The notes under the pieces: generated by a model
What the model saw: only the letters and a program-made list of their open reading frames with translations
What the model was told of the DNA's origin: nothing
Databases searched by the model: none
Position numbers and translations under genes: made by a program
NCBI RefSeq assembly: GCF_003439925.1
Contig: NZ_QQRR01000001.1
Span: 1,302,001-1,366,000, forward strand
Length of the DNA: 64,000 nucleotides
Origin: Haloprofundus halophilus
Lineage (GTDB): Archaea; Halobacteriota; Halobacteria; Halobacteriales; Haloferacaceae
Direction of reading: 5' to 3'
Shown: positions 3,750 through 15,977 of the stretch, piece by piece
How positions within the stretch are numbered: the first letter of the stretch is position 1
How the letters are laid out: every line of letters begins with the position of its first letter

Positions 3750-5102
3750 TTACGGCTCTACCGTTTCGAGCCTCGGGAAGTTGTCTATCGTCTCCGCGCG
3801 GAACGCCTCCTCGTCGAACTCGTAGTCGTCACCGAGGAACTCCACGACGCGCTTGGCGTCGCTCATCGCGTTCTTCAGACAGGTCGACGCGCCGGGCGAC
3901 GGCGTGATGTTGAAGATGATGTTGTCGCCGCTTATCGTGGCCTCGCCCATGTCGAGCGCCTTCGCGTCCGTGTCGACGATCTGGGGCCGGACGCCGCCGT
4001 AACCCTTCGCGCGTTCGATGTCGTCGAGTTCCGCCGACGGGACGACTTTCTGCACGTTCGGCAGGAACGCCCGTTTCCCGACTTCCGGGAGGTCGTACAC
4101 GAGGTTCCGGAGGACGTACGGGAGGAGGATGCGGTCCGAGAGGATGTTGGCGTAACTGAGGAAGGAGTCCGCGTTCAGTCCGAAGACGTCGAAGAAGTCG
4201 CCGACCGTCGAGATGCGGCCGCGTTCGAGCGCCGGGACGAGCTTCGCCGTCGGACCGAATCGCGTGATGGAGTCGTCGTGGACGTCGGCGTCGCCGTGGA
4301 CCGCCGCGAACGGGAGTTTCTTCATCTGCAGCGTGTACACCTTCCCGTTCAGCAGGTCGTCGGCGAGGAAGAAGCTCCCCGCGACGGGCAGCAGCGACAT
4401 GTTCTCGCCGTAACCCATCTCCTTGGCGATCTGGAGGCTGTGAGAGCCTGCGGCGACGACGACGGCGTCCGAGCGGAAACGTCCGGCGTCGGTCTCGACG
4501 CTGAAGCCGGTGCCGCGGTCGACGAGGTTCGTCACCTTCGTTCCGGTGTACACGTCGACCCCGTCGCGGTCTTCGGTCTGCCGGACGAACGACGCCGACG
4601 TCTCGCCGTAGTCGACGACGTAGCCGTCGGGCGTCTGCAGTGCCAACAGGCGCTCGTCGGGGTCTCTCCCCTCGACGACGTTCGGTTCGAGTTCCTCGAT
4701 CTCGTCGCGCTCGATGGCGCGGAGTTTCGGGAACAGGTCGCCGAACCCTTCGTCCTCGTAGCGCGTCTCCAGTTTTCGGGTCTCCTCGTCGCCGACTGCC
4801 AACACCATCTTGCTCCGCTTGCTGTGCATCTCCCGGTCGGGGTCGACGTTCTCGAGGTAACCCGCCAGCAACTCCGCGCCCTCTTTGACCTCTTCGGCCT
4901 TTTCGAGGGTGTAGTTCGTCTCGATATCTCCGAAGTGAAGCGTCTGCGAGTTGTTCGTGTGGTGGGAGTTGACCGCCGCGATTTCGTCCTCTTTCTCGAA
5001 CAGCGCGACGCTCTCTATGTCGGTGAAGTTCGACACCGCGTAGAGCAACGACGCCCCGCTGATTCCGCCGCCGACGATGATCAGATCGTAGTTCTCAGGC
5101 AT
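3750..5102 (-). CDS. mqo: FAD-dependent malate:quinone oxidoreductase-like protein
   Basis: This 450-aa flavoprotein begins with a Rossmann FAD-binding motif (IIVGGGISGASLL, residues 8-20). It then shows VNSHHTNNSQTLHFGDIETN followed by YTLEKA, which resembles the NYTPEK region of malate:quinone oxidoreductases. A second dinucleotide-type stretch, AVVVAAGSHSL, follows mid-protein. The C-terminal region contains TPSPGASTCLKNA, typical of the same family. It probably oxidises malate (or a related 2-hydroxy acid) and passes electrons to menaquinone at the membrane. L-2-hydroxyglutarate dehydrogenase is a possible alternative. The gene is a single unit, and its promoter region lies between it and the left boundary of the integrated element. 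Confidence 0.75.
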   Translation of the reverse strand: MPENYDLIIVGGGISGASLLYAVSNFTDIESVALFEKEDEIAAVNSHHTNNSQTLHFGDIETNYTLEKAEEVKEGAELLAGYLENVDPDREMHSKRSKMVLAVGDEETRKLETRYEDEGFGDLFPKLRAIERDEIEELEPNVVEGRDPDERLLALQTPDGYVVDYGETSASFVRQTEDRDGVDVYTGTKVTNLVDRGTGFSVETDAGRFRSDAVVVAAGSHSLQIAKEMGYGENMSLLPVAGSFFLADDLLNGKVYTLQMKKLPFAAVHGDADVHDDSITRFGPTAKLVPALERGRISTVGDFFDVFGLNADSFLSYANILSDRILLPYVLRNLVYDLPEVGKRAFLPNVQKVVPSAELDDIERAKGYGGVRPQIVDTDAKALDMGEATISGDNIIFNITPSPGASTCLKNAMSDAKRVVEFLGDDYEFDEEAFRAETIDNFPRLETVEP

Positions 5103-5230
5103 AGGTAGCTGTGATACTCGGTCTCGTGTCGGTACGTCGTCTCCCGGTGGTTAACTCACTTTTCATCCGCGAATATCTCGCCGTCGAGGTAGTGGTTCGG
5201 AGGCGCAGGTACGACCCGGACAGAAGGCGG

Positions 5231-5245
5231 ATGGGCCCTGCCGGA
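5231..5245. repeat. attL-like copy of the tRNA-Met 3' end
   Basis: The 15 bases atgggccctgccgga are identical to 14932-14946, which covers the discriminator base, the 3' acceptor strand and part of the T-arm of tRNA-Met. The flanking bases differ on both sides. The tyrosine recombinase gene ends 50 bp away. Together these mark the distal end of an element integrated at the tRNA gene. Confidence 0.8.
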
Positions 5246-5294
5246 ACACCTCGATACGCTTCCTTACGAGATTGTGAATTGAACATCATGGCTA

Positions 5295-6308
5295 TCACTC
5301 TGTCAAATACTTGCGCCGCTGCTCGGCCTTCTGGCGCTCCGAACGCCGATCATAATGCTTGTCGAGAATCTGTGCCGACGCGTTCAACCGATCACCCACC
5401 ACCTCACGCGGCACGTTATTCAACCGATACGCCGTCACCCGGCCACTCCGAACATCGTGCGGACTCCGAGAAGACGGGCACTTGCACGCCTTCAGATAAT
5501 ACGTCGCCTCGCACTCGTCCGGATCACGGTCGTGCGGACACTCCTCGCCGTACCAGCACGGTCGGGTCACACAGTACATCGAATCTCGAATCGTCGACAC
5601 CGACGCCCGACCCCGTTGAGTCGAAATCAACGGTTTGCGGCCGTGGTCGTCCATCTTGTCGATACGTGGGCCGTCGATGTACTCCTGAACCACGTGTGCG
5701 ACGAAATCCGAGAGACTGTTCCACCGCTCGCCCTTCTCGGCGTTCTTCAGCGGCGTATCCGTCTCCGGACGGTGATTGAACTTCAGTGCCGGACCCTTCC
5801 CGTTCGTCCGACTGCCGTCCAAGTCGAGATCCCTCAGGTCGACTCCACGGAGCGCGCCGACTCGACACCCCGTGTGCCACAAGAGCAGGAGCGCGACATG
5901 GTTGCGAGAGGCGAAGTGATATCGCTCCAGGTAATCCAGAATCGTGGTCACCCGAGCCACTTCGAGCGTCGTATCGCTCACCGATTCGGCGTCACTCACC
6001 GCCGGGAGCGGAACCTGAGTGAACAACTCCTCGTCAACGGCGTCGATGTCCGCGCAGAAGCGGAGGAACGCCCGGAGCGTTGCGAGGTCGCCGTAGTTCC
6101 CCTCGCGCCGCCACACTCGATAGGCGTAGAGATCTCTCCCAGACAGCTCGTTTAGATTCTCGATTCCTTCTTCCTCACACCAGGCGACGAACGCTCTGAG
6201 TCGGTAGCGATGACCCCGAAGCGTTTGCTCAGTGATCTCGTCGCGTCGAGCGTCGAGATAGAGCTTCAGTGCCCTTCCCGGATCGAGGGGTTGGAGGTTG
6301 CCGCTCAT
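5295..6308 (-). CDS. tyrosine recombinase / integrase
   Basis: This 337-aa protein should catalyse site-specific recombination of the element at tRNA-Met. Residues 1-95 form a SAM-like core-binding domain and the rest a catalytic domain. Visible catalytic residues are R149 in HTGCRVGA, the H-x-x-R box at 284-287 (HDVR), and the nucleophile Y319 in LDKHYDR. A cysteine-rich insertion (about residues 245-278, with CWYGEECPHD and CKC) could bind zinc, which I recall from other haloarchaeal integrases. The gene is intact, unlike SSV-type integrases that are split by integration. The 15-bp att copy lies 50 bp beyond its stop codon. Confidence 0.92.
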   Translation of the reverse strand: MSGNLQPLDPGRALKLYLDARRDEITEQTLRGHRYRLRAFVAWCEEEGIENLNELSGRDLYAYRVWRREGNYGDLATLRAFLRFCADIDAVDEELFTQVPLPAVSDAESVSDTTLEVARVTTILDYLERYHFASRNHVALLLLWHTGCRVGALRGVDLRDLDLDGSRTNGKGPALKFNHRPETDTPLKNAEKGERWNSLSDFVAHVVQEYIDGPRIDKMDDHGRKPLISTQRGRASVSTIRDSMYCVTRPCWYGEECPHDRDPDECEATYYLKACKCPSSRSPHDVRSGRVTAYRLNNVPREVVGDRLNASAQILDKHYDRRSERQKAEQRRKYLTE

Positions 6309-6913
6309 GCGGAAACACCTCCGACGGTGCGACTACTTTCGTTCCGTCCGCTATGCTTACAAAGGGGGTTTTCGTATGCTGGCATGGCTTCCTTTTGGGA
6401 GCCGCGGTCGCCCACGAGTGCGCTGGTCCTGGAAGATTTAGCGCGCTCGTGATGGACCGCTGGCGTGTCGAGCAATTCTGATGGTTTTGCTATAAAGCTC
6501 AGCCATGGGTGCAGAGTGAAACTGACCGTATCGGCGAAAGTGAAACTCATGGACCCAAGAACACCTTCAAGTGTTCGAGGCAGGCGAGGTCTCCCGGCAA
6601 CGTCGAGCAGGCCGGGCAGGCGATAAGCGAATCGTCCGCTTTTGAGAGGGGTTCAAGACCCCTCGGAGTTTGCGTATACATGCTTCCGTACTGTGTTTAC
6701 GGGAGCTATCGCGGACCCGGTGTCACTACCACCGGTCCGCTGCTTTCTACTGGACCTGATGACAGTCAGATCCGCGTTTAGCTTCCGTCACCCACAGGGT
6801 TGTAGGTCGGTTACTTAAGTCTTACCTACAATACTGTACGAATTAGATGCAGATTAACACGTATTTGGGATAGATGAAAATAGTAATACAACTCGGATGC
6901 AGTGTCGTAACAT
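6309..6913. other. 605-bp non-coding gap inside the element
   Basis: No convincing gene was found here. A minus-strand reading frame from about 6550 ends in an ATGA overlap with the integrase start, but its sequence does not look like a known protein. A strong hairpin is at 6711-6740. The right part (6790-6913) is AT-rich with TATA-like stretches and probably holds the promoter of the winged-helix gene. This may be the control region of the element. Confidence 0.5.
6711..6740. terminator. stem-loop in the element control region
   Basis: An 11-bp GC-rich stem with one bulged C (gcggacccggtg against caccggtccgc) closes a loop of about seven bases. It could be a terminator or an operator. Only the inverted repeat itself is seen. 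Confidence 0.4.
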
Positions 6914-7195
6914 ATGCGTGCACCGCTGGCTTCGTGGATGACACCAGCGGACCGTGCCATTCTCGAGCGATTGAGAAACGAAGGGAATAGGGAGTTAGTA
7001 TTGACTCCTGCGCTAATCGCTGAAAACACAGACTACGCTCGTACGACTGTAAGGGAGCATATTATATTACTTCAGAAAAAGAGTCTTGTAGAATACTATG
7101 ACGAGTCCAGGGGTATTTACCAACTTTCCAACAGAGGACGAGCTTGGCTTGAAGGAGATATAGACACTTCAAGGATTGAGAGTACAGAAGATTAA
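6914..7195 (+). CDS. winged-helix regulator, PhiH1 repressor-like
   Basis: The product is a 93-aa protein of a type common in haloarchaeal viruses and plasmids. It has MTPADRAILERL at the start of helix 1, a recognition helix region around NTDYARTTVREHIILLQKK, and a wing ending in YQLSNRGRAWLEGD. It probably binds operator DNA near its own gene and controls genes of the element. Its codon use is more AT-rich than that of the chromosome. The start at 6914 is the first ATG after an AT-rich promoter-like stretch. The family match is from remembered motifs; the target genes are not known. Confidence 0.75.
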   Translation: MRAPLASWMTPADRAILERLRNEGNRELVLTPALIAENTDYARTTVREHIILLQKKSLVEYYDESRGIYQLSNRGRAWLEGDIDTSRIESTED

Positions 7196-7312
7196 GCAAT
7201 TTCAAGAATTGTCGACGGGGTTAATAACATAGAGCCTAATCTGGGATTTTCTGTACATTCTCTGAAGACCGAAGAACTCAAGCAACTTGCCTGTTGGTTT
7301 CTAACTAAGATT

Positions 7313-8638
7313 ATGACCCATATTGACTATCTCCGTGTGAGTGGATTTAAGGCGGTGGAGTATTTGGAGTTTGAACCCAGTGAAATCAATCTGATAACTG
7401 GGAGAAACAATATGGGGAAAACATCTTTTTTGCAATCGGCCGATTTAGTTTTTAATCCGTCAAACATCACCCGTTTCTCAAAACATCTCGACAAAATAGT
7501 CCATGAAAATAGTGATTCTGCTTCAATAGAAAGTCGTTTTTCCCGGAGGCAACAAACTCTAGATGAATTTTCGCTTAAGGATGGAAAAAGAGGGAAACAT
7601 AGAGAACTCGGCTTGAGAGAACCAACTGAAAATGAGGTTGTCCGAAGCTTTTCTAAAACTGTTGAAGAAGTACTACAGTTAAACGAACAGTATCCTGTTA
7701 GGATAAGCAACTCAATCATGGAAAGAATGGGAATTGAAGACCGGGACACCTTCAGCGAAACTCTTCAAGATATATTACATGAAAGTGTTACTGAGATTTC
7801 TGAAGAATTGATTTTGTCCAATATGAGCAAAGATTTGATTATCGTAGAAATCGAGGGAGATACCTATCCCTACATACATTTGGGTAGTGGTTTTGACCGA
7901 CTTAGAAGTATAATCATAAACCATTCCGTCAAGAAGTTGCAAAATCAGTTTAATATTGATTCAGAAGAGAGGGGGGAATCAAATAGACAGAGGTATACTA
8001 ATCTACATTATTCATTCCGGGGATTCCTTACACCACGGTTCGGCGGAGATCGGTTTGTGGGCGAAGACCCTCCAAAGATAGATGGTATAAACCTAATTTC
8101 CAACCCTATTGCAGATCCAGAAAAGCTTGACCTTAGCCAAGAGAATGCTGCGGTTCGAACTAGCGATATCGAGGACTACTTAAAGGAAAGCGGGATCGTA
8201 GAGAATCTTGAAGACTTTGCGTTCGATCGTTTAGTCTTCAAAGAAGATTCAGAGAAAGGAGAGATCCCGTACGACTTTATGGGTGACGGCTTCAAAACAA
8301 TTGTAGGAATTCTTTGGGAACTCTTTGACGAACAGAAGCAGGGAGATGTTCTGCTCCTTGAAGAGCCTGATGTTCATATGCATCCAGGATATGTAGAAAA
8401 CCTCATTAGACAGCTGATAGAGATAAACCAAGAGAAAGATATTCAGTTATTTATTACTACACATAACATAGACATGATTGAAGGGTTTTTCTCACCTTCA
8501 CTAAATAGGACTCATGGAGACTATTTGGAAGAAAATTTCCGGTTATTGCAGTTATCTGGTTCTGTCCCTAAATCCCTAAGCTATCAGCAATCCAAAGATG
8601 AAGTTGAGCAAGTTGGGTCAGATCTTCGGGGGATATAA
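7313..8638 (+). CDS. AAA-family ATPase of an OLD/PARIS-like defence pair (AriA-like)
   Basis: This 441-aa protein is an ABC/SMC-type ATPase with an N-terminal RecF-like strand set (YLRVSGFKAVEYLEF). It has Walker A GRNNMGKTS near residue 30, Walker B DVLLLEEPDVHMHP near residue 344, and an H-loop ITTHN near residue 381. This layout is shared by OLD nucleases and by AriA of the PARIS system. The TOPRIM domain that follows the ATPase in OLD proteins is missing here and is instead encoded by the next gene, which starts on the base after the stop codon. The gene is strongly AT-rich compared with the rest of the chromosome, a sign of transfer. The role in defence is inferred from the gene pair and its place on an integrated element. 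Confidence 0.82.
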   Translation: MTHIDYLRVSGFKAVEYLEFEPSEINLITGRNNMGKTSFLQSADLVFNPSNITRFSKHLDKIVHENSDSASIESRFSRRQQTLDEFSLKDGKRGKHRELGLREPTENEVVRSFSKTVEEVLQLNEQYPVRISNSIMERMGIEDRDTFSETLQDILHESVTEISEELILSNMSKDLIIVEIEGDTYPYIHLGSGFDRLRSIIINHSVKKLQNQFNIDSEERGESNRQRYTNLHYSFRGFLTPRFGGDRFVGEDPPKIDGINLISNPIADPEKLDLSQENAAVRTSDIEDYLKESGIVENLEDFAFDRLVFKEDSEKGEIPYDFMGDGFKTIVGILWELFDEQKQGDVLLLEEPDVHMHPGYVENLIRQLIEINQEKDIQLFITTHNIDMIEGFFSPSLNRTHGDYLEENFRLLQLSGSVPKSLSYQQSKDEVEQVGSDLRGI

Positions 8639-9217
8639 ATGCCTACAATCATTTTCAGTGAAGGACATCACGATGTGGACTTTCTCTCATTAGTCCATGA
8701 CAGACATACTTGGACAGTTAGGGACTATGACACATTCATAGATCAACAATCAGACGACGATCAAGATCAAAGGGTTAGACAACATAAGCTCGATCCGAAG
8801 GTAGAGTATCTATACAAAGCAGAAGGTGGCCGTTCTGAAGTAATTAAGAAATTTCGATCCCACGCTACGGAATTCGGAGATGTAGATCTACTATTATTAG
8901 TTGATTTTGATAATGATGGAAGATCTGCATTCTTAACCGAGTTGAATGACAAACTTGATGAACATTATGGTGGTTTGTTAAGAGTAACGGCAAATCGAGT
9001 GCATCAAAACATCGACATGGAGTTTTTTAATTGTGACATTCTTAATAACGGAAATATAGATCATAGTTTCAAGTTAGCAGCGTTTAAGGACGATTTGGAA
9101 GCAGCCACAAATATCAAAAAGGGAGAAAAACGCAGCCAACACCGTCGGAAAATATGGATCTATTTGGAATATTGCAATAGAGTCTATAAAGATTTGAGAG
9201 ATTTCATATATTATTGA
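8639..9217 (+). CDS. stand-alone TOPRIM/DUF4435-like nuclease partner (AriB-like)
   Basis: This 192-aa protein begins MPTIIFSEGHHDVDFLS, where E8 fits the TOPRIM acidic residue. It has a DxD-type motif in LLLLVDFDNDGRSA around residues 88-92. These are the metal-binding residues of TOPRIM domains found in OLD nucleases, primases and DUF4435 proteins. Its start codon directly follows the ATPase stop codon, so the two are almost surely co-translated. In PARIS, AriB is held by the AriA ATPase and released as a toxic nuclease on sensing a phage trigger. A similar working is likely but not shown here. The C-terminal part is lysine- and tyrosine-rich and not recognised. Confidence 0.72.
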   Translation: MPTIIFSEGHHDVDFLSLVHDRHTWTVRDYDTFIDQQSDDDQDQRVRQHKLDPKVEYLYKAEGGRSEVIKKFRSHATEFGDVDLLLLVDFDNDGRSAFLTELNDKLDEHYGGLLRVTANRVHQNIDMEFFNCDILNNGNIDHSFKLAAFKDDLEAATNIKKGEKRSQHRRKIWIYLEYCNRVYKDLRDFIYY

Positions 9218-9242
9218 TGGTTTTCTATTACACTAAATAGCT

Positions 9243-9503
9243 CTATCGCCAGTGACTTTCGATATTCGTCCGATACCGTAGCCCAACCACGTCGGTATTA
9301 CAACAATGTTTCACCGTCTGTGGCGGATACTGATCTCGAACGTCCTCTAAGTTATCGCGACTCTGCACCAGATGCGTCAGCGCCGCGTCGATCACCACCG
9401 ACATCGGCGGGTCGTCACTCGGATCACTCGCCACGATCTCACTTGCTTGCTCTAACAACAGCTGGCGATCGTCAGTCAACTTCAGGCTAGTTCGTTTGGT
9501 CAT
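9243..9503 (-). CDS. small ribbon-helix-helix-like protein (DUF7386-like)
   Basis: The 86-aa product starts MTKRTSLKLTDDRQLLLEQA. A short N-terminal strand followed by two helices fits a CopG/ribbon-helix-helix DNA-binding protein. A second part contains SVVIDAALTHLVQSRDNLEDV, as in haloarchaeal proteins of unknown role. The start at 9503 is preferred to 9521, because it places the strand KRTSLKL at the usual N-terminal position. It lies convergent to the TOPRIM gene. It may be an antitoxin or a copy-control regulator; no partner toxin gene is seen. Confidence 0.6.
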   Translation of the reverse strand: MTKRTSLKLTDDRQLLLEQASEIVASDPSDDPPMSVVIDAALTHLVQSRDNLEDVRDQYPPQTVKHCCNTDVVGLRYRTNIESHWR

Positions 9504-9711
9504 ATAAACGAGGATATGCACCGGGGGGTCCAGTGCGTGAATCTGCGGTCACTCAACAGCGATTCGTTATCAACCCCGACCGCTCGACCGTCGCGGTCGT
9601 CGCGATCACGCCGAACGGAGGGTCGATTTCTATGCACCTTCACTCACCGGAGACGCCGGGAGGGTGCATACATCGAGGATTGCGTATACATCTGCGCTTG
9701 ACCCGGAGGGG

Positions 9712-9999
9712 TTAGAACTGAGCACCCGTCTCCAGACGCTTGCTCGTTTCTTGCTCCTGATGGAGTTTCATCGCGGCGAGTCCCTGCACCATCTCAGTCT
9801 CGCGGAGTGGCTTGGGGTCTTCTTGGCCATTCGGGATCGCACGCACGACGTAGACGCCTTCTCCCATTCGCTGAAGGTGCATCATCTGGCAATCTGGGAT
9901 GGTTCCGTCGTCGTCCATGATCCCGTCGAGCGCGAGGTCGCCTTTGTCGAGTGAGATCGTCGGTGTACCGGCCCGGTTGCTGAGTTTACGGATTGGCAT
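9712..9999 (-). CDS. small AbrB-like protein
   Basis: The 95-aa product starts MPIRKLSNRAGTPTISLDKG. This resembles the swapped-hairpin fold of AbrB/SpoVT/VapB-type proteins, where an arginine/lysine strand precedes a turn and a second strand. The remainder (GIMDDDGTIPDCQMMHLQRM, then GEGVYVVRAI) is a variable extension. It is probably a transcriptional regulator or antitoxin. The start at 9999 is preferred to 10023 on the basis of the fold. It is close to the ribbon-helix-helix gene and has the same direction. The function is not known. Confidence 0.55.
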   Translation of the reverse strand: MPIRKLSNRAGTPTISLDKGDLALDGIMDDDGTIPDCQMMHLQRMGEGVYVVRAIPNGQEDPKPLRETEMVQGLAAMKLHQEQETSKRLETGAQF

Positions 10000-10431
10000 T
10001 AGTGTGTCCACCACCGCGGCCATCCCATGGTACTTAATTATGCATGGTTGCCAGGAGGTGAGGGAGTGAAACTCCGATATTTTGGTGGCTCGGTAGTTCT
10101 GTCGGGGTTTTCTGGTTTCGATCCGTTGCGTAGAGAGAAGCAGAGGGTCAGGAGGCTATCCACAGTAAGGAGTCGAATCGGGAGACTGCGGAGGGATGGA
10201 TTGGTGGATATGGAAAATAACCCCTGTTTACTCTCTGGATACTCCGGCTCATGCCCATGGCGGACTTCCCTTCGGTCGTCCTTGACGCGATGGGCGCTCT
10301 GATCGGGGTCGGATCGAATATATAAGACGCGCGTGGAGGAGAACAATTAGTGCTGGACGGAGTCCACTGCCAACACAGAGTTTCGTCAGAACGACGCCCA
10401 ATTTTTATCACACCAATGTAATTTCTGAGTT
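10000..10431. other. 432-bp gap with promoter of the HEPN gene
   Basis: No protein gene was identified. The sequence aatatataag near 10317-10326 is a good TATA-like box, but it is about 105 bp upstream of the start codon at 10432, so a leader or a second promoter closer to the gene (near the AT-rich attttta at 10400) is possible. Confidence 0.4.
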
Positions 10432-12309
10432 ATGGATCAAGACGATTTCATAGCCACGTTCCGCCAATGCTTCGATTATCCGGATATCTCGCGGTTAACA
10501 ACGGAACAGATCAGCCAGTTAGAAAATCGACTTACCACCATGCAATGGTCATCCAAACAAGTTCTCGATGATTTCGAAGCATTGTACAGCGACTTGAGTC
10601 AACAACAACGCAGTCATATCAAAGATGTTAGACCACCTCTCATTGAGCTACGCCAAAGAGAGCGGAACCAGCGGAAAAATATCCGCCAGGCACTCGACGC
10701 ATCGTTAGACGATTCTCTGAATCCAATCTCATTTACCGTCAACGAATTTATCAACGTTTGTCTTACCCAGATCAACCACAGTACACGAGTCCAACTGAAG
10801 GATCAATTGGAATCCGCTCTGGGCGAGCTGAAACAACAAATGTATCGTGGTTCATTTGACGCAGACACCTTCCGCGATCCCTACCAAACTGGAACTAAAG
10901 ACACGCTAGAGGAGGAGTTTCTACAACTATACGAATATCTAGTACAACGGGGGTGGCACCGACGTGATCTGTACAATCTCAATCACACTATCGGGTATTT
11001 CTATGAGGACTTCGATGACGTGTTCAGCTGGATCGCAGATTTTGCTAACCAAGAGCGGGCTGAGCGGACTTACGTATTCTTCGTCTCCGGTCTTCAAGTC
11101 CTTGATCCGGTCTACCGCGATGACTTTGTGTACGCGATTGTCCCACCGGGTGAGTTAGAGGTTGATGACCTCATCGACATCTACCCGTATGACGATATTG
11201 ACGATCTCGATCTCTACGATCGAACCAGCCCCGGCGACGAACTCACGGTCGCCAAGATGTTGGAAGAAAAGACACTAATTGCGTTCCCCATCCATGCTTT
11301 TGGTACGTACGACGGCCGCGACCGGGCACTTGAACGGCTTTCAGAGATCCTTGACCTATTTTCATATTCCCATACACTCTCGCAAGTCGAAGAACCACAT
11401 TTCAATGAAAAGGCCAAGTATCTTGTCTGGCGTGATAACGGTGAATCACACTGTGCGCCATCGTCGGTCAGCGAACACGGCTCGACTGCGACTATATTCG
11501 AGTGGGATATCGACCGAATTTTCGATATACTTGTCCCAGCCTCACAACACGAGTCACCACTCAGTATCAAGCTAAAACGTGGCCTTCATTTCTTCCGGAA
11601 GGGCAACAACAGCCGCCGCGACATCGATACTATTATTTTTTACATTGCCTGTCTGGAGACTATCGTCGGTGTCGGTCACGTCTATCGTGATGAAGCGATC
11701 GAGAAAGGGCTGTTATTAGGCAAAGTCCGCGACTCAGATCTAGAGACGTTCCGAGAGGCATTGCAGCGGATATACGAACTTAGGAATGAGGCGCTTCATG
11801 CTGGATTGCGACAGGTCGATACTCGTGGTGAAGTTGATGTGATGCGAGGAGTTCTTAAGACGGCCTTGCAGGAGATAGCTGAAGCAATCAACGAAGACGG
11901 AGTCACATCGATGTCAGCGCTTCTCACATATTTCCGAGCGAAGAAACAGGCAGCCTATGAGGGGTGGATCGACAAACTCGAATCTGATGGGTTCGAGGTG
12001 GATACGGTGTATTCGTTCACGGGAACTATGTATAATGGAGAGGGTGCCCTGAAAGGCGATGTCTCGGGAAACATTGAGTTTGCGGAAGATGGTCAGTTTA
12101 TCACACCAATATTGACAGTTTCAAATTTGGATAAGGAGGAGGATTTCAAGTTCGGTGAAGGATTAGAGATTGAAGCTTTGGTTGATGACCGGAACCTACG
12201 AATTGAGCGGATCCGTGAAGATAGTTTGATTGTGATGAGTATCAACATAGGCTCCTTCCAGGAGACAGATCCGTGGGAGACTGTATTCAGAAACTATGAG
12301 ATAGAATAA
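10432..12309 (+). CDS. 625-aa protein with Apea-like HEPN domain
   Basis: This large soluble protein is not recognised as a whole. A helical region with the motif RNEALHAG at residues 451-458 fits the catalytic Rx4H signature of HEPN RNases, and the surrounding sequence (FYIACLETIVG, then the long helix FREALQRIYELRNEALH) looks like the Apea-like HEPN group found in defence proteins. The N-terminal 180 residues are helical and glutamine/arginine-rich. The middle part is acidic (DDIDDLDLYD). Base composition is lower in GC than the chromosome. Its place on the element next to an ATPase/TOPRIM pair suggests defence or toxin activity, which is inference only. Confidence 0.7.
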   Translation: MDQDDFIATFRQCFDYPDISRLTTEQISQLENRLTTMQWSSKQVLDDFEALYSDLSQQQRSHIKDVRPPLIELRQRERNQRKNIRQALDASLDDSLNPISFTVNEFINVCLTQINHSTRVQLKDQLESALGELKQQMYRGSFDADTFRDPYQTGTKDTLEEEFLQLYEYLVQRGWHRRDLYNLNHTIGYFYEDFDDVFSWIADFANQERAERTYVFFVSGLQVLDPVYRDDFVYAIVPPGELEVDDLIDIYPYDDIDDLDLYDRTSPGDELTVAKMLEEKTLIAFPIHAFGTYDGRDRALERLSEILDLFSYSHTLSQVEEPHFNEKAKYLVWRDNGESHCAPSSVSEHGSTATIFEWDIDRIFDILVPASQHESPLSIKLKRGLHFFRKGNNSRRDIDTIIFYIACLETIVGVGHVYRDEAIEKGLLLGKVRDSDLETFREALQRIYELRNEALHAGLRQVDTRGEVDVMRGVLKTALQEIAEAINEDGVTSMSALLTYFRAKKQAAYEGWIDKLESDGFEVDTVYSFTGTMYNGEGALKGDVSGNIEFAEDGQFITPILTVSNLDKEEDFKFGEGLEIEALVDDRNLRIERIREDSLIVMSINIGSFQETDPWETVFRNYEIE

Positions 12310-12632
12310 AAACAATTCAGACAGCTCTATTGTCCAGAATGGCGTTTCTTGAACAGGGCTTCTGCGAGTCGGAATCGGCTTCGTTTCGAGTGGGCTGGCT
12401 TACCTCCCAGCAAAAGCGGGGTATATTTTTAGCAAGTGCCCTTAGGCACACTCCCTAAGGGGATCTTCCCATTCGCTGGGAAGATTTCCGCCTCGATCGG
12501 AGCGAAGCACAGCTCGCGACGAGTCGGGGTGTCCACCCGAAATTGTGGTTAGACTGATTTAGCAGAGAAAATGAGGCTTCGATTGCCGGATAATTGACTC
12601 AGAAACAGCGTTGCCACTCACGAGGGCTGTCG
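12310..12632. other. 323-bp convergent gap with two strong hairpins
   Basis: No gene is seen. Two hairpins lie next to each other at 12439-12461 (8-bp stem) and 12463-12485 (9-bp stem, loop ttcgc). They are preceded by a run of T (gtatattttt) near 12430. They may be bidirectional terminators between the converging HEPN and winged-helix genes, or part of a small RNA. Confidence 0.5.
12439..12485. terminator. tandem stem-loops between convergent genes
   Basis: The first stem pairs cccttagg with cctaaggg around loop cacactc. The second pairs atcttccca with tgggaagat around a five-base loop. Both are perfect. Their position between converging genes favours termination or RNA stabilisation, but this is not proved by sequence. 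Confidence 0.45.
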
Positions 12633-14243
12633 TCAGCCGATCCAGCTACTCACCCTCCGCGTGAACCACTCCTCACCGTCAGCAGACGACTCGAACATCA
12701 TCCGTTCGTACTGAACCGCGTCGCGGCCAGCGCGGATCCACGCTCGACGTCCTTCCTTGATCGCCTCGCTGATGTGCGGCAGTAGTGGATCTGACTTGGC
12801 GACTGAGACCAGCGTTCCAATTCTGAAGCCGTCAACAGCCCCATCGTCGCCTCGGGCGAGATCCACCGCCCATTTAGTCATCCAATTCTGCAACGCGCTG
12901 TCTGCGGCTTCTCGCGTCTCTGAATTGATGAGCTTCGCTGCACGGTCGGCTTTCGACCGGACGAACCGATCCGTCTGCTCAGCGATAGCGGCCACCTCCT
13001 GTTTGAATTTGAGTGAACGGAGGTCGAGGTCGCCGTTGTCGTTCCGCACCAGGTCACCGAGTTCCTGCAGGTAGCGGTAGATCGTGCTCACCGAGTAGCC
13101 CGTGTCGTCAGCGAGTTCCTCGTAGTGGCGGCCGCCGTCGGTCGCCAGCTCGTAGACCATCTCTCCTGCTCCCTCACTCAATTCGCGTAGTGTGGTCACT
13201 AGGAGCGCTTCCTCGTGAGCCTCGATCTCCGGCGATGGATCGTCGTAGCGAGCAATTCGAATGTCGGATTCGGCCGGCGCGAAGTGGTCGTCCTCGATGT
13301 ACGTTCCTGGCGAGTGCGGGTCGGTCGGGATGCCCGCCCAAGGGAGGACGTTGATCACCGTCTCCTCAATCTCGCGGCGCAGTTCCCGAAGGTCACCCCA
13401 AGCGAACGCCCGTCCGTCGTTGAACGCCTTCTTCAACAACACACCGAATTTCGGGTGAAACAGCGCGTCATCCCCTGTCTCCTCTGATCTGACGTACTTC
13501 GGATGGTAGCACTTCAGCTGTTTTCCTCGTGAGTTCGTCGGCATAAGCTTCTGCGCGGCCTCGGGCCAGAGCTTCAGCCGATGGTTCTTCCCAACGATCT
13601 CCTCGTTGTCGCCAGCGAAGATCCATTTCGTCCCTTGCTCAGAAGAGAGCAGGAAGAAGAGTCGGTAGAACGTCCCTCCAGCACGAACAAGCTTCTGAGC
13701 CATGTCGCGCGAGAGCCGGACGTGCTGCTCGTAGGTGTAGAGGTTCGACGAGTCGTGGACCTCTGTGAAGTAGTCTCTCCGAACCATCAGCGCCGCTTCG
13801 TCAGCGAGCGCGCAGAACGCGGCGCGCAGTAGCGACGGGTACTCCTCGGGTTCGAGGTTCGACCCGTGGAAGTCTACGTCGACTCCTTCGCCTCCTGGCT
13901 GCCACGGGATCCGTAGAATCTCACCGTCGGGGTTACGCATCTCCTCGAATCGAGGTGAGACGTTGAAGTGTGCCTTCTTCTGTCCAAGCCCCTCACAGTG
14001 AATCTCGTACTCGTAGAGCGTCGAGCGCGAAATTCCGTCGGAGGGTCGAGGCGCGATATTCGAGTCAGAGTAGGCGAGTTTGACGTGCCATGGATCGCCG
14101 TCGTGCTCGAAGTTGACTTCACCGGAGTAGCCGTTGAAGCCCTGGTGCAACAGTTTGGACACAGCCCAGTAGGGACTGAGACCATGTTCGGGAAAGATAA
14201 GATGCCCCTCAGCCTCGTGCGGAGCCGTGGCGACGTGGGTCAT
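12633..14243 (-). CDS. haloarchaeal element-associated winged-helix protein (DUF7845-like)
   Basis: This 536-aa protein is of a kind I recall from haloarchaeal plasmids and integrated elements, with no firm function. The N-terminal two thirds is a mixed alpha/beta region containing YTEVH-like and KWIFAGDNEE stretches. A winged-helix follows at about residues 355-400 (HYEELADDTGYSVSTIYRYL), and then a long helical C-terminus. It may be a replication or partition protein of the element. The start at 14243 is supported by a strong Shine-Dalgarno sequence (ggaggg, six bases upstream) and by an ATGA overlap with the preceding small gene. The protein is acidic and soluble. Confidence 0.65.
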   Translation of the reverse strand: MTHVATAPHEAEGHLIFPEHGLSPYWAVSKLLHQGFNGYSGEVNFEHDGDPWHVKLAYSDSNIAPRPSDGISRSTLYEYEIHCEGLGQKKAHFNVSPRFEEMRNPDGEILRIPWQPGGEGVDVDFHGSNLEPEEYPSLLRAAFCALADEAALMVRRDYFTEVHDSSNLYTYEQHVRLSRDMAQKLVRAGGTFYRLFFLLSSEQGTKWIFAGDNEEIVGKNHRLKLWPEAAQKLMPTNSRGKQLKCYHPKYVRSEETGDDALFHPKFGVLLKKAFNDGRAFAWGDLRELRREIEETVINVLPWAGIPTDPHSPGTYIEDDHFAPAESDIRIARYDDPSPEIEAHEEALLVTTLRELSEGAGEMVYELATDGGRHYEELADDTGYSVSTIYRYLQELGDLVRNDNGDLDLRSLKFKQEVAAIAEQTDRFVRSKADRAAKLINSETREAADSALQNWMTKWAVDLARGDDGAVDGFRIGTLVSVAKSDPLLPHISEAIKEGRRAWIRAGRDAVQYERMMFESSADGEEWFTRRVSSWIG

Positions 14244-14476
14244 AGCAGACCCTCCCTGCGGAGGGCGCATCCACCGCACAACGGCACACCACTCGCGATA
14301 AGCGGGCGTTCGCGAACTGTCGGCGTTCGTCGCTCACAATCGGAGCAAAAATCGTACTCGATATGCTCCGGCTCGGAATTCCTGACATGGCTTTCGGCGT
14401 GATCGTCGCCCCCGCGACGGTCACACACTACTTCCTCAACGTCAACTCCCCAGCTGGAGAGATCGTGCTGAGTCAC
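14240..14476 (-). CDS. small zinc-ribbon protein
   Basis: The product is 78 aa, with two cysteine pairs (CSDC and CGGC) spaced about 25 residues apart that would bind one zinc ion. Its stop codon overlaps the start of the winged-helix gene by four bases (ATGA), so they form an operon and are translationally coupled. Small zinc proteins of this size are often found beside such genes on haloarchaeal elements. The N-terminal 40 residues contain an additional cysteine (VVCDRRG). The function is not known. Confidence 0.6.
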   Translation of the reverse strand: MTQHDLSSWGVDVEEVVCDRRGGDDHAESHVRNSEPEHIEYDFCSDCERRTPTVRERPLIASGVPLCGGCALRREGLL

Positions 14477-14516
14477 GTCGCCACCTCCGCAACTTCACAC
14501 GCCTGGCGAAGCGGAC

Positions 14517-14759
14517 TCATTGGAACTGCTCCGTCTTCGGCGTGTTGCCGTGGCGACCTTCGGCAGTCTCAGGATCGGGAATCCGAACCTCACGTCCGGC
14601 TGCGCTCCCGCGCGAGAGACGCGCGTAGCTATCGCAGCTATTGCAGCGGTGGACTCGATGGTTCCGGTCACCGAACACACGGCGGAATCCGTCAGTAACG
14701 TGGGCTCCGCAGTGAATACAGCTGTTCTCGTCCTCCGGCAGTCCAAGACGAACTGCCAT
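14517..14759 (-). CDS. small zinc-ribbon protein (DUF7563-like)
   Basis: This 80-aa protein has a single zinc ribbon, CIHCGAHVTDGFRRVFGD, followed by CNSC. The form CxxCG-x-VTDxFxRVFGD is one I recall from haloarchaeal small zinc proteins (DUF7563). It is the first gene of the rightmost operon of the element and lies 40 bp before the next zinc-ribbon gene. It ends with a hydrophilic tail. A DNA- or RNA-binding role is possible, but none is shown. It is short and depends on recognition of the motif. Confidence 0.6.
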   Translation of the reverse strand: MAVRLGLPEDENSCIHCGAHVTDGFRRVFGDRNHRVHRCNSCDSYARLSRGSAAGREVRIPDPETAEGRHGNTPKTEQFQ

Positions 14760-14931
14760 CTAACGGACACCTCCGGCTCGTAAAACCGCAAGACTGCGGC
14801 GACCCCCAACCAGTAACTGGTTGGTATCCGGATTTTTGGCGGTCGCTCTGGATTGGTAATTCGTCCCGTGAAGGCCCAGTTCGTCCGAATCCAGCCGAAT
14901 CGCATTCGGCTCAGAAACGGGCAGTAACTGA

Positions 14932-14946
14932 ATGGGCCCTGCCGGA
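14932..14946. repeat. attR-like site within the 3' end of tRNA-Met
   Basis: The same 15-bp sequence as at 5231-5245. Here it forms the discriminator, 3' acceptor strand and part of the T-stem of the intact tRNA-Met gene, so integration leaves the tRNA functional. Confidence 0.8.
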
Positions 14947-15040
14947 TTTGAACCAGCGATCACCCGGTATCCCACAGCCACTGTCTCAGACAGTGGCTGA
15001 TATGAGCCGGGGGCTTTGAACCAGACTAAGCTAAGGGCCC
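14933..15040 (-). tRNA. elongator tRNA-Met (CAT) with 32-nt intron
   Basis: The gene is 108 nt long with a 7-bp acceptor stem (gggccct/agggccc), a D-arm, an anticodon stem cccgg/ccggg and a T-arm gctgg/ccggc. The anticodon CAT is at 15004-15002. The intron (15000-14969) lies between positions 37 and 38. The splice sites form a canonical bulge-helix-bulge: central helix ctca/tggg, three-base bulges tat and ata, with cuts after the second bulge base. Most of the intron is an 11-bp hairpin with a three-base loop. The mature tRNA would be 76 nt. An intron at this tRNA is known in Haloferax, where I recall it being longer. Confidence 0.93.
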
Positions 15041-15069
15041 TTCATCGAAGTCAAACAGATGGCACCTAT

Positions 15070-15642
15070 TTAGTCTGCCGAATCCGGAGCGGAGCCGTTA
15101 TCTCGACACCGGTATTCTTGGATGACGGTTCGGAATTCGTCTACATCAGCGACGACTACCAGAGACTTGTCTGATTGTTCGTAATAAGTCAACTTCTTGG
15201 AGAACGACCGAGAGTTTGGACGACCGTTCTCTGAGTATCCGTCCACTTCCACCCAGAGACGAAGCTCCGGGAGGTAGAAATCCCCGACCCAATCTGTATC
15301 GTCGATTTTCGGGTGCGGAACGTATGAGATTTCTCTCTTGGTTAGGTACTCGGCGATAGCCAGTTCGTGCCGACTGTCGAGTCGTTCGTTCTTCGGTCCA
15401 AAGCACGCCGTACCGTGCTTCGATCCGCACGCGATTCCAGACACGTAACATGCCGTTGACCACGAACCAAATCGAGATTTGATGACGCTCGTCGGGTATT
15501 TCCCGTGCTCAGTGTATTGTCGGCTTGTAAGGGTACCTCCTTCAGTCGAAGCGAACACTGCCCGAAGATCCCGAACCATCCGTATCCGCGCCTCTGGACC
15601 GTATTTTTCGGGTTGCGTAGGGTCGACGTCCGCATCGTCCAA
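15070..15642 (-). CDS. homing-endonuclease-repeat protein with PD-(D/E)XK-like nuclease domain
   Basis: The N-terminal part contains a homing-endonuclease-associated repeat (GKYPTSVIKSRFGSWSTACY). The C-terminal half holds a restriction-endonuclease-like core with DWVGDFYLPELRLWVEVDGY, where D and E-V-D are the likely metal ligands. The listed start at 15642 is a TTG. However, the same frame stays open upstream to 15819 and encodes a second copy of the repeat (ELGHPPTTREAQADGRF, then LCESWSELLDDAD). No ATG or GTG is found in that stretch, and an ATG at 15830 lies in another frame. The true gene probably began at 15830 and is frameshifted near its 5' end. It ends 29 bp before tRNA-Met on the same strand. 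Confidence 0.6.
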   Translation of the reverse strand: MDDADVDPTQPEKYGPEARIRMVRDLRAVFASTEGGTLTSRQYTEHGKYPTSVIKSRFGSWSTACYVSGIACGSKHGTACFGPKNERLDSRHELAIAEYLTKREISYVPHPKIDDTDWVGDFYLPELRLWVEVDGYSENGRPNSRSFSKKLTYYEQSDKSLVVVADVDEFRTVIQEYRCRDNGSAPDSAD

Positions 15643-15904
15643 CAGTTCGGACCAACTTTCACACAGAGAATAAATCCGAGCTAAACACGGAAATCGTCCG
15701 TCGGCTTGTGCCTCTCGTGTTGTCGGCGGATGGCCGAGTTCAGCCGTCAGTTCGCGGACGGAAACGACAAGCGCCTCGTACGAGCGGGCAACGTCGTTTG
15801 ACTCGTCTACAGTCGTATACTAGTTACCATAGAACTCACCCATTGTCAACTCGTTTTCGATATGCGAGAGGCCAATAAGAATCTGGGGAACGAGAGAAAA
15901 ACGA

Positions 15905-15977
15905 CGCCGTCGCCAGGACTCGAACCTGGGACCACCTCGTTAACAGCGAGGTGCTCTACCAACTGAGCTACGACGGC
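15905..15977 (-). tRNA. tRNA-Asn (GTT)
   Basis: A 73-nt cloverleaf without intron. The acceptor stem is gccgtcg/cgacggc, the anticodon loop is ctgttaa with anticodon GTT, and the T-arm is ccagg-ttcgagt-cctgg. CCA is not encoded, so it depends on the CCA-adding enzyme whose gene lies nearby on the other strand. Confidence 0.95.

Follow-up and report, generated by a model that had tools for sequence, protein, structure and literature searches.

A two-gene ATPase/TOPRIM-type family of archaea, carried by a tRNA-integrated element in Haloprofundus halophilus

The gene pair and the element that carries it

The window analyzed here, that is, the whole stretch of DNA under study, comprises 64,000 nt of the Haloprofundus halophilus genome (NZ_QQRR01000001.1:1,302,001-1,366,000, forward strand), and all coordinates are positions in this window. 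The pair of interest consists of two plus-strand genes. The first encodes a 441-amino-acid ATPase of the ABC/AAA_15-AAA_21 type (7313..8638), assigned from Pfam and profile matches and a 14-sequence alignment and predicted to be the sensor or regulator subunit; the second encodes a 192-amino-acid TOPRIM-type putative nuclease (8639..9217), assigned from an AlphaFold2 model, invariant residues and hhalign comparisons and predicted to be the effector. The genes share strand and frame and meet at a TAA/ATG junction with zero spacer. The initial annotation of this DNA, made from the sequence, had described two AT-rich reading frames that abut without a gap; the exact coordinates bear this out, with only the TAA between the frames and a GC content of 0.39-0.41 in the pair region compared to about 0.65 for the chromosome.

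The ATPase matches both of the Pfam profiles with which its comparison had been proposed, AAA_21 (87.6 bits, cut-off 27) and AAA_15 (69.8 bits, cut-off 32.1), well above the cut-offs, and its top PDB profile match is the OLD nuclease 6p74 (3.5e-12). The Walker A, Walker B and H-loop motifs noticed initially are all conserved in the homologs included in the 14-sequence alignment. The Walker A motif, GRNNMGKTS (residues 30-38; 7400..7426, plus strand, as are all motifs below), contains G30, R31, N32, G35, K36, T37 and S38, which are invariant in 14 of 14 sequences; the ABC-signature-like motif FMGDGFKT (residues 322-329; 8276..8299) contains F322, G324 and G326, likewise invariant (14/14). The Walker B motif LLLLEEP (346-352) and the D-loop-like HMHPGY (355-360), which together occupy 8348..8392, include the invariant residues E350, E351, H355, H357, P358, G359 and Y360, the HxHPGY motif being kept across homologs, and all three residues of the H-loop TTH (T382, T383 and H384; 8456..8464) are invariant in 14 of 14 sequences.

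A 9.7-kb integrative element (5246-14946), inserted in a tRNA gene, carries both genes as cargo. The left boundary is marked by the attL core, ATGGGCCCTGCCGGA (5231..5245, plus strand), with chromosomal similarity to congeners stopping exactly at 5245, and the attR core, ATGGGCCCTGCCGGA (14932..14946, plus strand), falls within the 3' end of the integration site, a minus-strand tRNA(CAT) gene (14932-15041). The corresponding empty site is found in congener L109, where the sequence equivalent to 4745-5245 is joined to that of 14932-14968 via the 15-bp core; in congener G021, both flanks meet at the single 15-bp core, and other congeners likewise lack the whole element. The 15-bp att repeat and the empty sites in congeners prove that this is an integrated element, as had been surmised; the tRNA-Asn gene at 15905-15977, considered as an insertion site, was rejected in favor of the tRNA(CAT) gene. 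The element encodes its own tyrosine-recombinase integrase (5295..6308, minus strand), with matches to Phage_int_SAM_1 (25 bits, cut-off 22.3), Phage_integrase (E 0.0024) and XerC (2e-9). The other products of the element are a small winged-helix-like protein (6914-7195), a DUF7386 protein, a DUF7845 protein and a 625-amino-acid protein. The last of these (10432-12309, plus strand) is an orphan with a C-terminal R-x4-H motif (RNEALH), a very weak match to CARF_HEPN (E 0.029) and a single distant relative among 145 haloarchaeal genomes; it is possibly a second defense-type gene.

The tRNA(CAT) gene itself is interrupted beside the anticodon, at the usual site of archaeal introns, by about 32 nt (around 14969-15000) that are missing in the congeners' tRNA at the same site; ARAGORN gave no call for this gene. 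Between the tRNA(CAT) gene and tRNA-Asn, a second insertion relative to congeners (15042-15890) holds a minus-strand gene (15070-15642) whose product combines a homing-endonuclease-associated repeat with a C-terminal part like PDC-S69.

The TOPRIM-type protein, the spread of the pair and the ATPase tail

Pfam assigns the 192-amino-acid protein to no family, so that the TOPRIM call rests on the order of the motifs, an AlphaFold model of high confidence and a profile-profile match to the OLD TOPRIM. The initial annotation recognized a separate TOPRIM-type protein by E8 and the DFDND motif, and these features have held up well: E8, G9, D12, K60, D89 and D91 are invariant in all 25 homologs, and E154 is retained in 21 of the 25. 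Glu8 (8660..8662, plus strand) belongs to TOPRIM motif I (FSEGHHD), and Asp89-Phe-Asp91 (8903..8911, plus strand) is the DxD of motif II. The AlphaFold2 model (pLDDT 90.6) has an alternating alpha/beta fold in which E8 is located right behind the first strand (3-7) and D89 closes strand 83-89; such a placement, a glutamate where the first strand ends and a DxD closing one of the later strands, characterizes the TOPRIM superfamily.

Profile-profile comparison with hhalign aligned the protein with the OLD-type TOPRIM at 39-48% probability, over a stretch that begins at E8, includes the GG turn and closes with the DxD (D91), with reversed-sequence controls below 1%; DUF3226-like proteins were matched at 41-72%, mostly over motif I, DUF4435 at 5-10% and RloB at less than 1%. 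In Pfam searches, the window protein had no match to OLD-like_TOPRIM (PF20469; 2 of 14 relatives match, best E 0.042), to DUF3226 (PF11536; 3 of 14 relatives, best E 0.0075), to DUF4435 (PF14491) up to an E-value of 1 (1 of 14 relatives, at E 0.015) or to RloB (PF13707). When the ATPase and the TOPRIM-type protein were modeled as a read-through chain (pLDDT 89.1, pTM 0.74), the best Foldseek E-values were obtained with the OLD nuclease 6p74, the retron-Eco8 OLD and GajA, in alignments of 617-725 columns that exceed the 441-residue length of the ATPase, with low TM-scores of about 0.3. For the isolated TOPRIM model compared with the PDB and viral libraries, no TOPRIM was among the matches listed by Foldseek. 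On the strength of the motifs, the profile match and the fold, we regard the identification of the protein as a TOPRIM as very likely.

Relatives of the pair were found in whole genomes, other archaeal loci being reached through the ATPase. The pair is carried by 13 of the 292 genomes of the haloarchaeal class, some of which hold two or three divergent copies, by seven genomes of the same phylum outside haloarchaea (the methanogen side) and by one Aenigmatarchaeota and one Altiarchaeales genome. The suggestion, made initially, of a possible new archaeal branch is supported by this taxonomic range; our literature search found no publication naming this archaeal ATPase/TOPRIM family. An ATPase gene is located directly upstream at all 16 haloarchaeal places detected by TOPRIM similarity, at four further archaeal loci and at seven of seven methanogen-side loci, which argues that the pairing is not due to chance. 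Junctions almost always span -4 to +2 nt, with one of 12 nt, and the genes are separate, never fused, in all pairs read. The two proteins diverge in concert (Mantel r 0.86 for 25 pairs; the highest of 2000 permutations reached 0.27). The nearly identical ATPases of two copies from different haloarchaeal families (L007 and L008), seen in the tree, imply horizontal transfer. Two copies are decayed, one with a broken ATPase frame and an in-frame TAG in the TOPRIM gene (L004) and the other with an in-frame TGA in the TOPRIM gene (L016). A virus or plasmid origin was considered and rejected, given that no TOPRIM relative was found in viral contigs or in phage or plasmid records; the ATPase matches in viral contigs span only 48-90 residues, and none has the C-terminal tail described next.

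The extreme C-terminus of the ATPase is DLRGI (8621..8635, plus strand), in which DLRG is invariant and the Arg-Gly-Ile codons also resemble a ribosome-binding site for the TOPRIM gene. From haloarchaea to DPANN, the ATPase ends with DLRG plus 0 or 1 residue in 27 of 27 archaeal pairs. The Asp and Leu codons of the tail show synonymous variation among these pairs, and the Arg codon ends in a purine in 23 of 27 compared with a background of 68%. A purely Shine-Dalgarno cause of the tail was rejected: the Arg codon is biased, but the Asp and Leu codons are free while the residues are fixed, so that selection on DLRG at the protein level is needed. The Arg-Gly codons may double as the ribosome-binding site of the second gene. 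A parallel to the archaeal tail is seen in bacterial pairs of an ATPase and a DUF3226-like protein (L028, L030, L031, L032, L039, L040 and L045), where the ATPase C-terminus EVR is invariant; in most of these, the EVR codons spell GAGGT, and a ribosome-binding-site role is therefore to be separated from a protein role.

Relationship to named ATPase-TOPRIM systems

The initial annotation likened the pair to PARIS or to a split OLD. The comparison holds for the architecture; the kinship does not, as the phylogenetic tree of the ATPases indicates. In this tree of 59 sequences, the archaeal family is placed apart from the fused-OLD ATPases, which group separately (support 84), from the RloB-paired ATPases and from the DUF4435-paired, PARIS-like ATPases, which form a clade of their own (98%). 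The nearest group is formed by bacterial ATPases paired with DUF3226-like TOPRIMs (a 33-row branch, support 93); the position of one deep methanogen-side sequence (L064) was not resolved. In methanogen-side archaea, there are also pairs of an ATPase with a DUF4435 protein (L066-L072 and L074-L076).

Like PARIS (AriA/AriB; class 4 OLD), the archaeal pair combines an ABC ATPase and a TOPRIM nuclease encoded by separate adjacent genes; it differs in the lack of DUF4435, in the shorter TOPRIM (192 amino acids, compared to open frames of 312-366 amino acids for archaeal DUF4435 proteins) and in the distinct phylogenetic position of the ATPase. The published detection rule for PARIS combines an AAA_15 match of at least 32 bits or an AAA_21 match of at least 27 bits with an adjacent DUF4435 match of at least 27 bits (PMC9122126); the archaeal ATPase clears the first part with the scores given above, and its neighbor yields no DUF4435 match. 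Nor does the ATPase fall within an AriA-like lineage, inasmuch as the archaeal DUF4435-paired ATPases, which were picked solely by their position beside DUF4435 proteins, are separate from it (98%) in a tree from which the characterized bacterial AriA was left out. The PADLOC AriA model PDLC02980 matches the ATPase at 6e-25, but this model has the length of AAA_21 and nearly the same matched positions, so that the match is not specific. PARIS proper is further defined by the release of AriB upon an anti-restriction trigger and by cleavage of tRNA-Lys. The DUF4435 pairs of methanogen-side archaea are PARIS-like, although split (class 4) OLD enzymes were assigned to bacteria alone in a recent survey built on a tree (PMC12796447).

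With the fused OLD enzymes (class 1, GajA and the retron-Eco8 OLD), the archaeal pair shares the two domains and their order, a TOPRIM profile alignment from E8 to D91 and the best Foldseek E-values of the read-through model. In contrast to these enzymes, it consists of two genes, the TOPRIM in the window has no OLD-like_TOPRIM match, and the ATPase is outside the fused-OLD group. Membership in fused OLD classes 1-3 is excluded by the stop codon between the genes in the window and by the separate genes in all pairs. A recently split OLD was rejected as well because fused OLDs group separately; the nearest ATPases are the bacterial DUF3226-paired ones. AbiL and RloA-RloB resemble the archaeal pair in that an ATPase is followed by a small second protein, but there is no RloB match, the hhalign probability is below 1%, and the RloB-paired ATPases are very distant in the tree, so that this membership was rejected, too.

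The bacterial pairs of an AAA_21-type ATPase and a DUF3226-like protein have the nearest ATPases, the same order of ATPase followed by TOPRIM, tight junctions and a conserved ATPase C-terminal tail with an arginine; they differ in the weak TOPRIM profile match (41-72%), in the tail itself (EVR rather than DLRG) and in their bacterial hosts. Our literature search yielded no paper with "DUF3226", and these bacterial pairs are unnamed. By profile, the closest catalogued entry is the PADLOC candidate PDC-M38, for which we found no publication using the name. PDC-M38 also has two components: its ATPase, PDC-M38A, matches the archaeal ATPase at 1.1e-22, and the TOPRIMs of three haloarchaeal relatives match PDC-M38B at 6e-6 to 5e-7 over their first 97-145 residues, which take in the TOPRIM core; for two relatives, the range is 1e-6 to 5e-7. 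However, the window TOPRIM matches PDC-M38B only at E 0.021, methanogen and DPANN TOPRIMs match at 0.002-0.006 or not at all, and the C-terminal part of the PDC-M38B models (219-293 positions) is unmatched by archaeal TOPRIMs. The family is an unnamed, archaea-wide two-gene family with an architecture like that of known anti-virus systems, and it is none of the named ones.

Proposed function

Most likely, in our view, the pair is a two-protein conflict module of the OLD/PARIS kind, carried by a tRNA-integrated element and acting in the manner of abortive infection; we hold this to be probable. In PARIS, AriA sequesters AriB until triggered, whereupon AriB cleaves tRNA (PMC12409363), and OLD/GajA enzymes cut DNA (PMC10568477); the reading of the archaeal proteins as a sensor ATPase and a nuclease effector is proposed by analogy with these systems. 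The ATPase would form ABC-type dimers or higher oligomers and act as the sensor or regulator, and the TOPRIM would be a two-metal nuclease employing E8, D89 and D91, aided by K60 and E154. In the uninfected cell, the ATPase would bind the TOPRIM and keep it inactive, probably in part by means of the C-terminal DLRG tail; a trigger from a virus or a competing element would then shift the state of the ATPase, freeing or activating the TOPRIM, which would cut DNA or tRNA and so stop the infected cell or the invader. A more specific version, in which the nuclease docks on the tail and is silenced by it, as by a physical latch, within an archaea-wide defense family independent of PARIS, AbiL and fused OLD, is put forward tentatively, as somewhat less likely than its opposite; under it, the bacterial DUF3226-like pairs would use the EVR tail in an analogous way.

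We infer defense-like behavior from several features of the family: it is patchy (13/292), absent from congeners and mobile, with near-identical copies across families, several divergent copies per genome and the decayed copies L004 and L016. The neighborhoods can be read in the same way, with an AspBHI/Mrr-type methyl-directed restriction enzyme adjoining one copy (L117) and a DUF7845 gene, as on the window element, near this copy and another (L118). Some observations count against this reading, namely the isolated TOPRIM model that retrieved no TOPRIM with Foldseek, the TM-scores of about 0.3, the weak enrichment near known defense genes (15 neighborhoods) and the HerA-type and radical-SAM-type neighbors of certain copies. 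Two copies (L014 and L015) follow immediately on a HerA/DUF87 helicase gene and a gene of about 100 amino acids (L125:6206-10290 and L126:5717-10000), a possible four-gene operon, and three copies from one haloarchaeal family (L009, L011 and L012) adjoin the same radical-SAM-type gene; such neighbors look partly like stable chromosomal residence.

These neighbors speak for an alternative in which the pair is a genome-maintenance complex that processes DNA ends or chromatin and was acquired by mobile elements secondarily. The precedent is Cran1 of Saccharolobus, an archaeal OLD-family ATPase-nickase that is inherited vertically across Sulfolobales, was judged essential and apparently is not antiviral (PMC12796447). 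Cran1 and the archaeal pair both belong to the ATPase-TOPRIM OLD superfamily in archaea, but the pair is split, patchy and mobile, whereas Cran1 is vertically inherited and apparently essential. The small share of haloarchaeal genomes with the pair, the absence of the whole element from congeners, the decay of some copies and the near identity of others across families all speak against a maintenance role, which we consider unlikely. We give the same low probability to a toxin-antitoxin or addiction module that stabilizes the element, with the TOPRIM as toxin and the ATPase as antitoxin and no specific antiviral sensing. Tight translational coupling, a conserved ATPase tail that could neutralize the partner, the location on an integrative element and the Pfam description of AAA_21 as "putative AbiEii toxin, Type IV TA system" are all compatible with such a module, but the conservation of the ABC ATPase motifs points to a regulated switch more than to a passive antitoxin, and deleting either gene was non-toxic in PARIS, an analogous system (PMC9122126). 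That the pair is a bona fide PARIS system in an archaeon, as its two genes, the AAA_15/AAA_21 scores and the non-specific PDLC02980 match might suggest, is exceedingly improbable and was rejected on the absence of DUF4435 and the placement in the tree, the short TOPRIM being a further point against it.

A 2026 survey of archaeal immunity calls for the discovery of archaea-specific systems, and its main text includes neither TOPRIM nor PARIS (PMC12988326). The family described here, which we favor as a conflict module, is a concrete archaeal ATPase/TOPRIM module, whereas the tree-based survey put class 4 OLD in bacteria only (PMC12796447), and its invariant four-residue tail is an easily tested feature. 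Should the tail turn out to be a docking latch, we would learn how the toxin is held silent in split ATPase-nuclease systems; a pair without a defensive role would instead widen the range of non-immune roles of OLD-type enzymes that began with Cran1.
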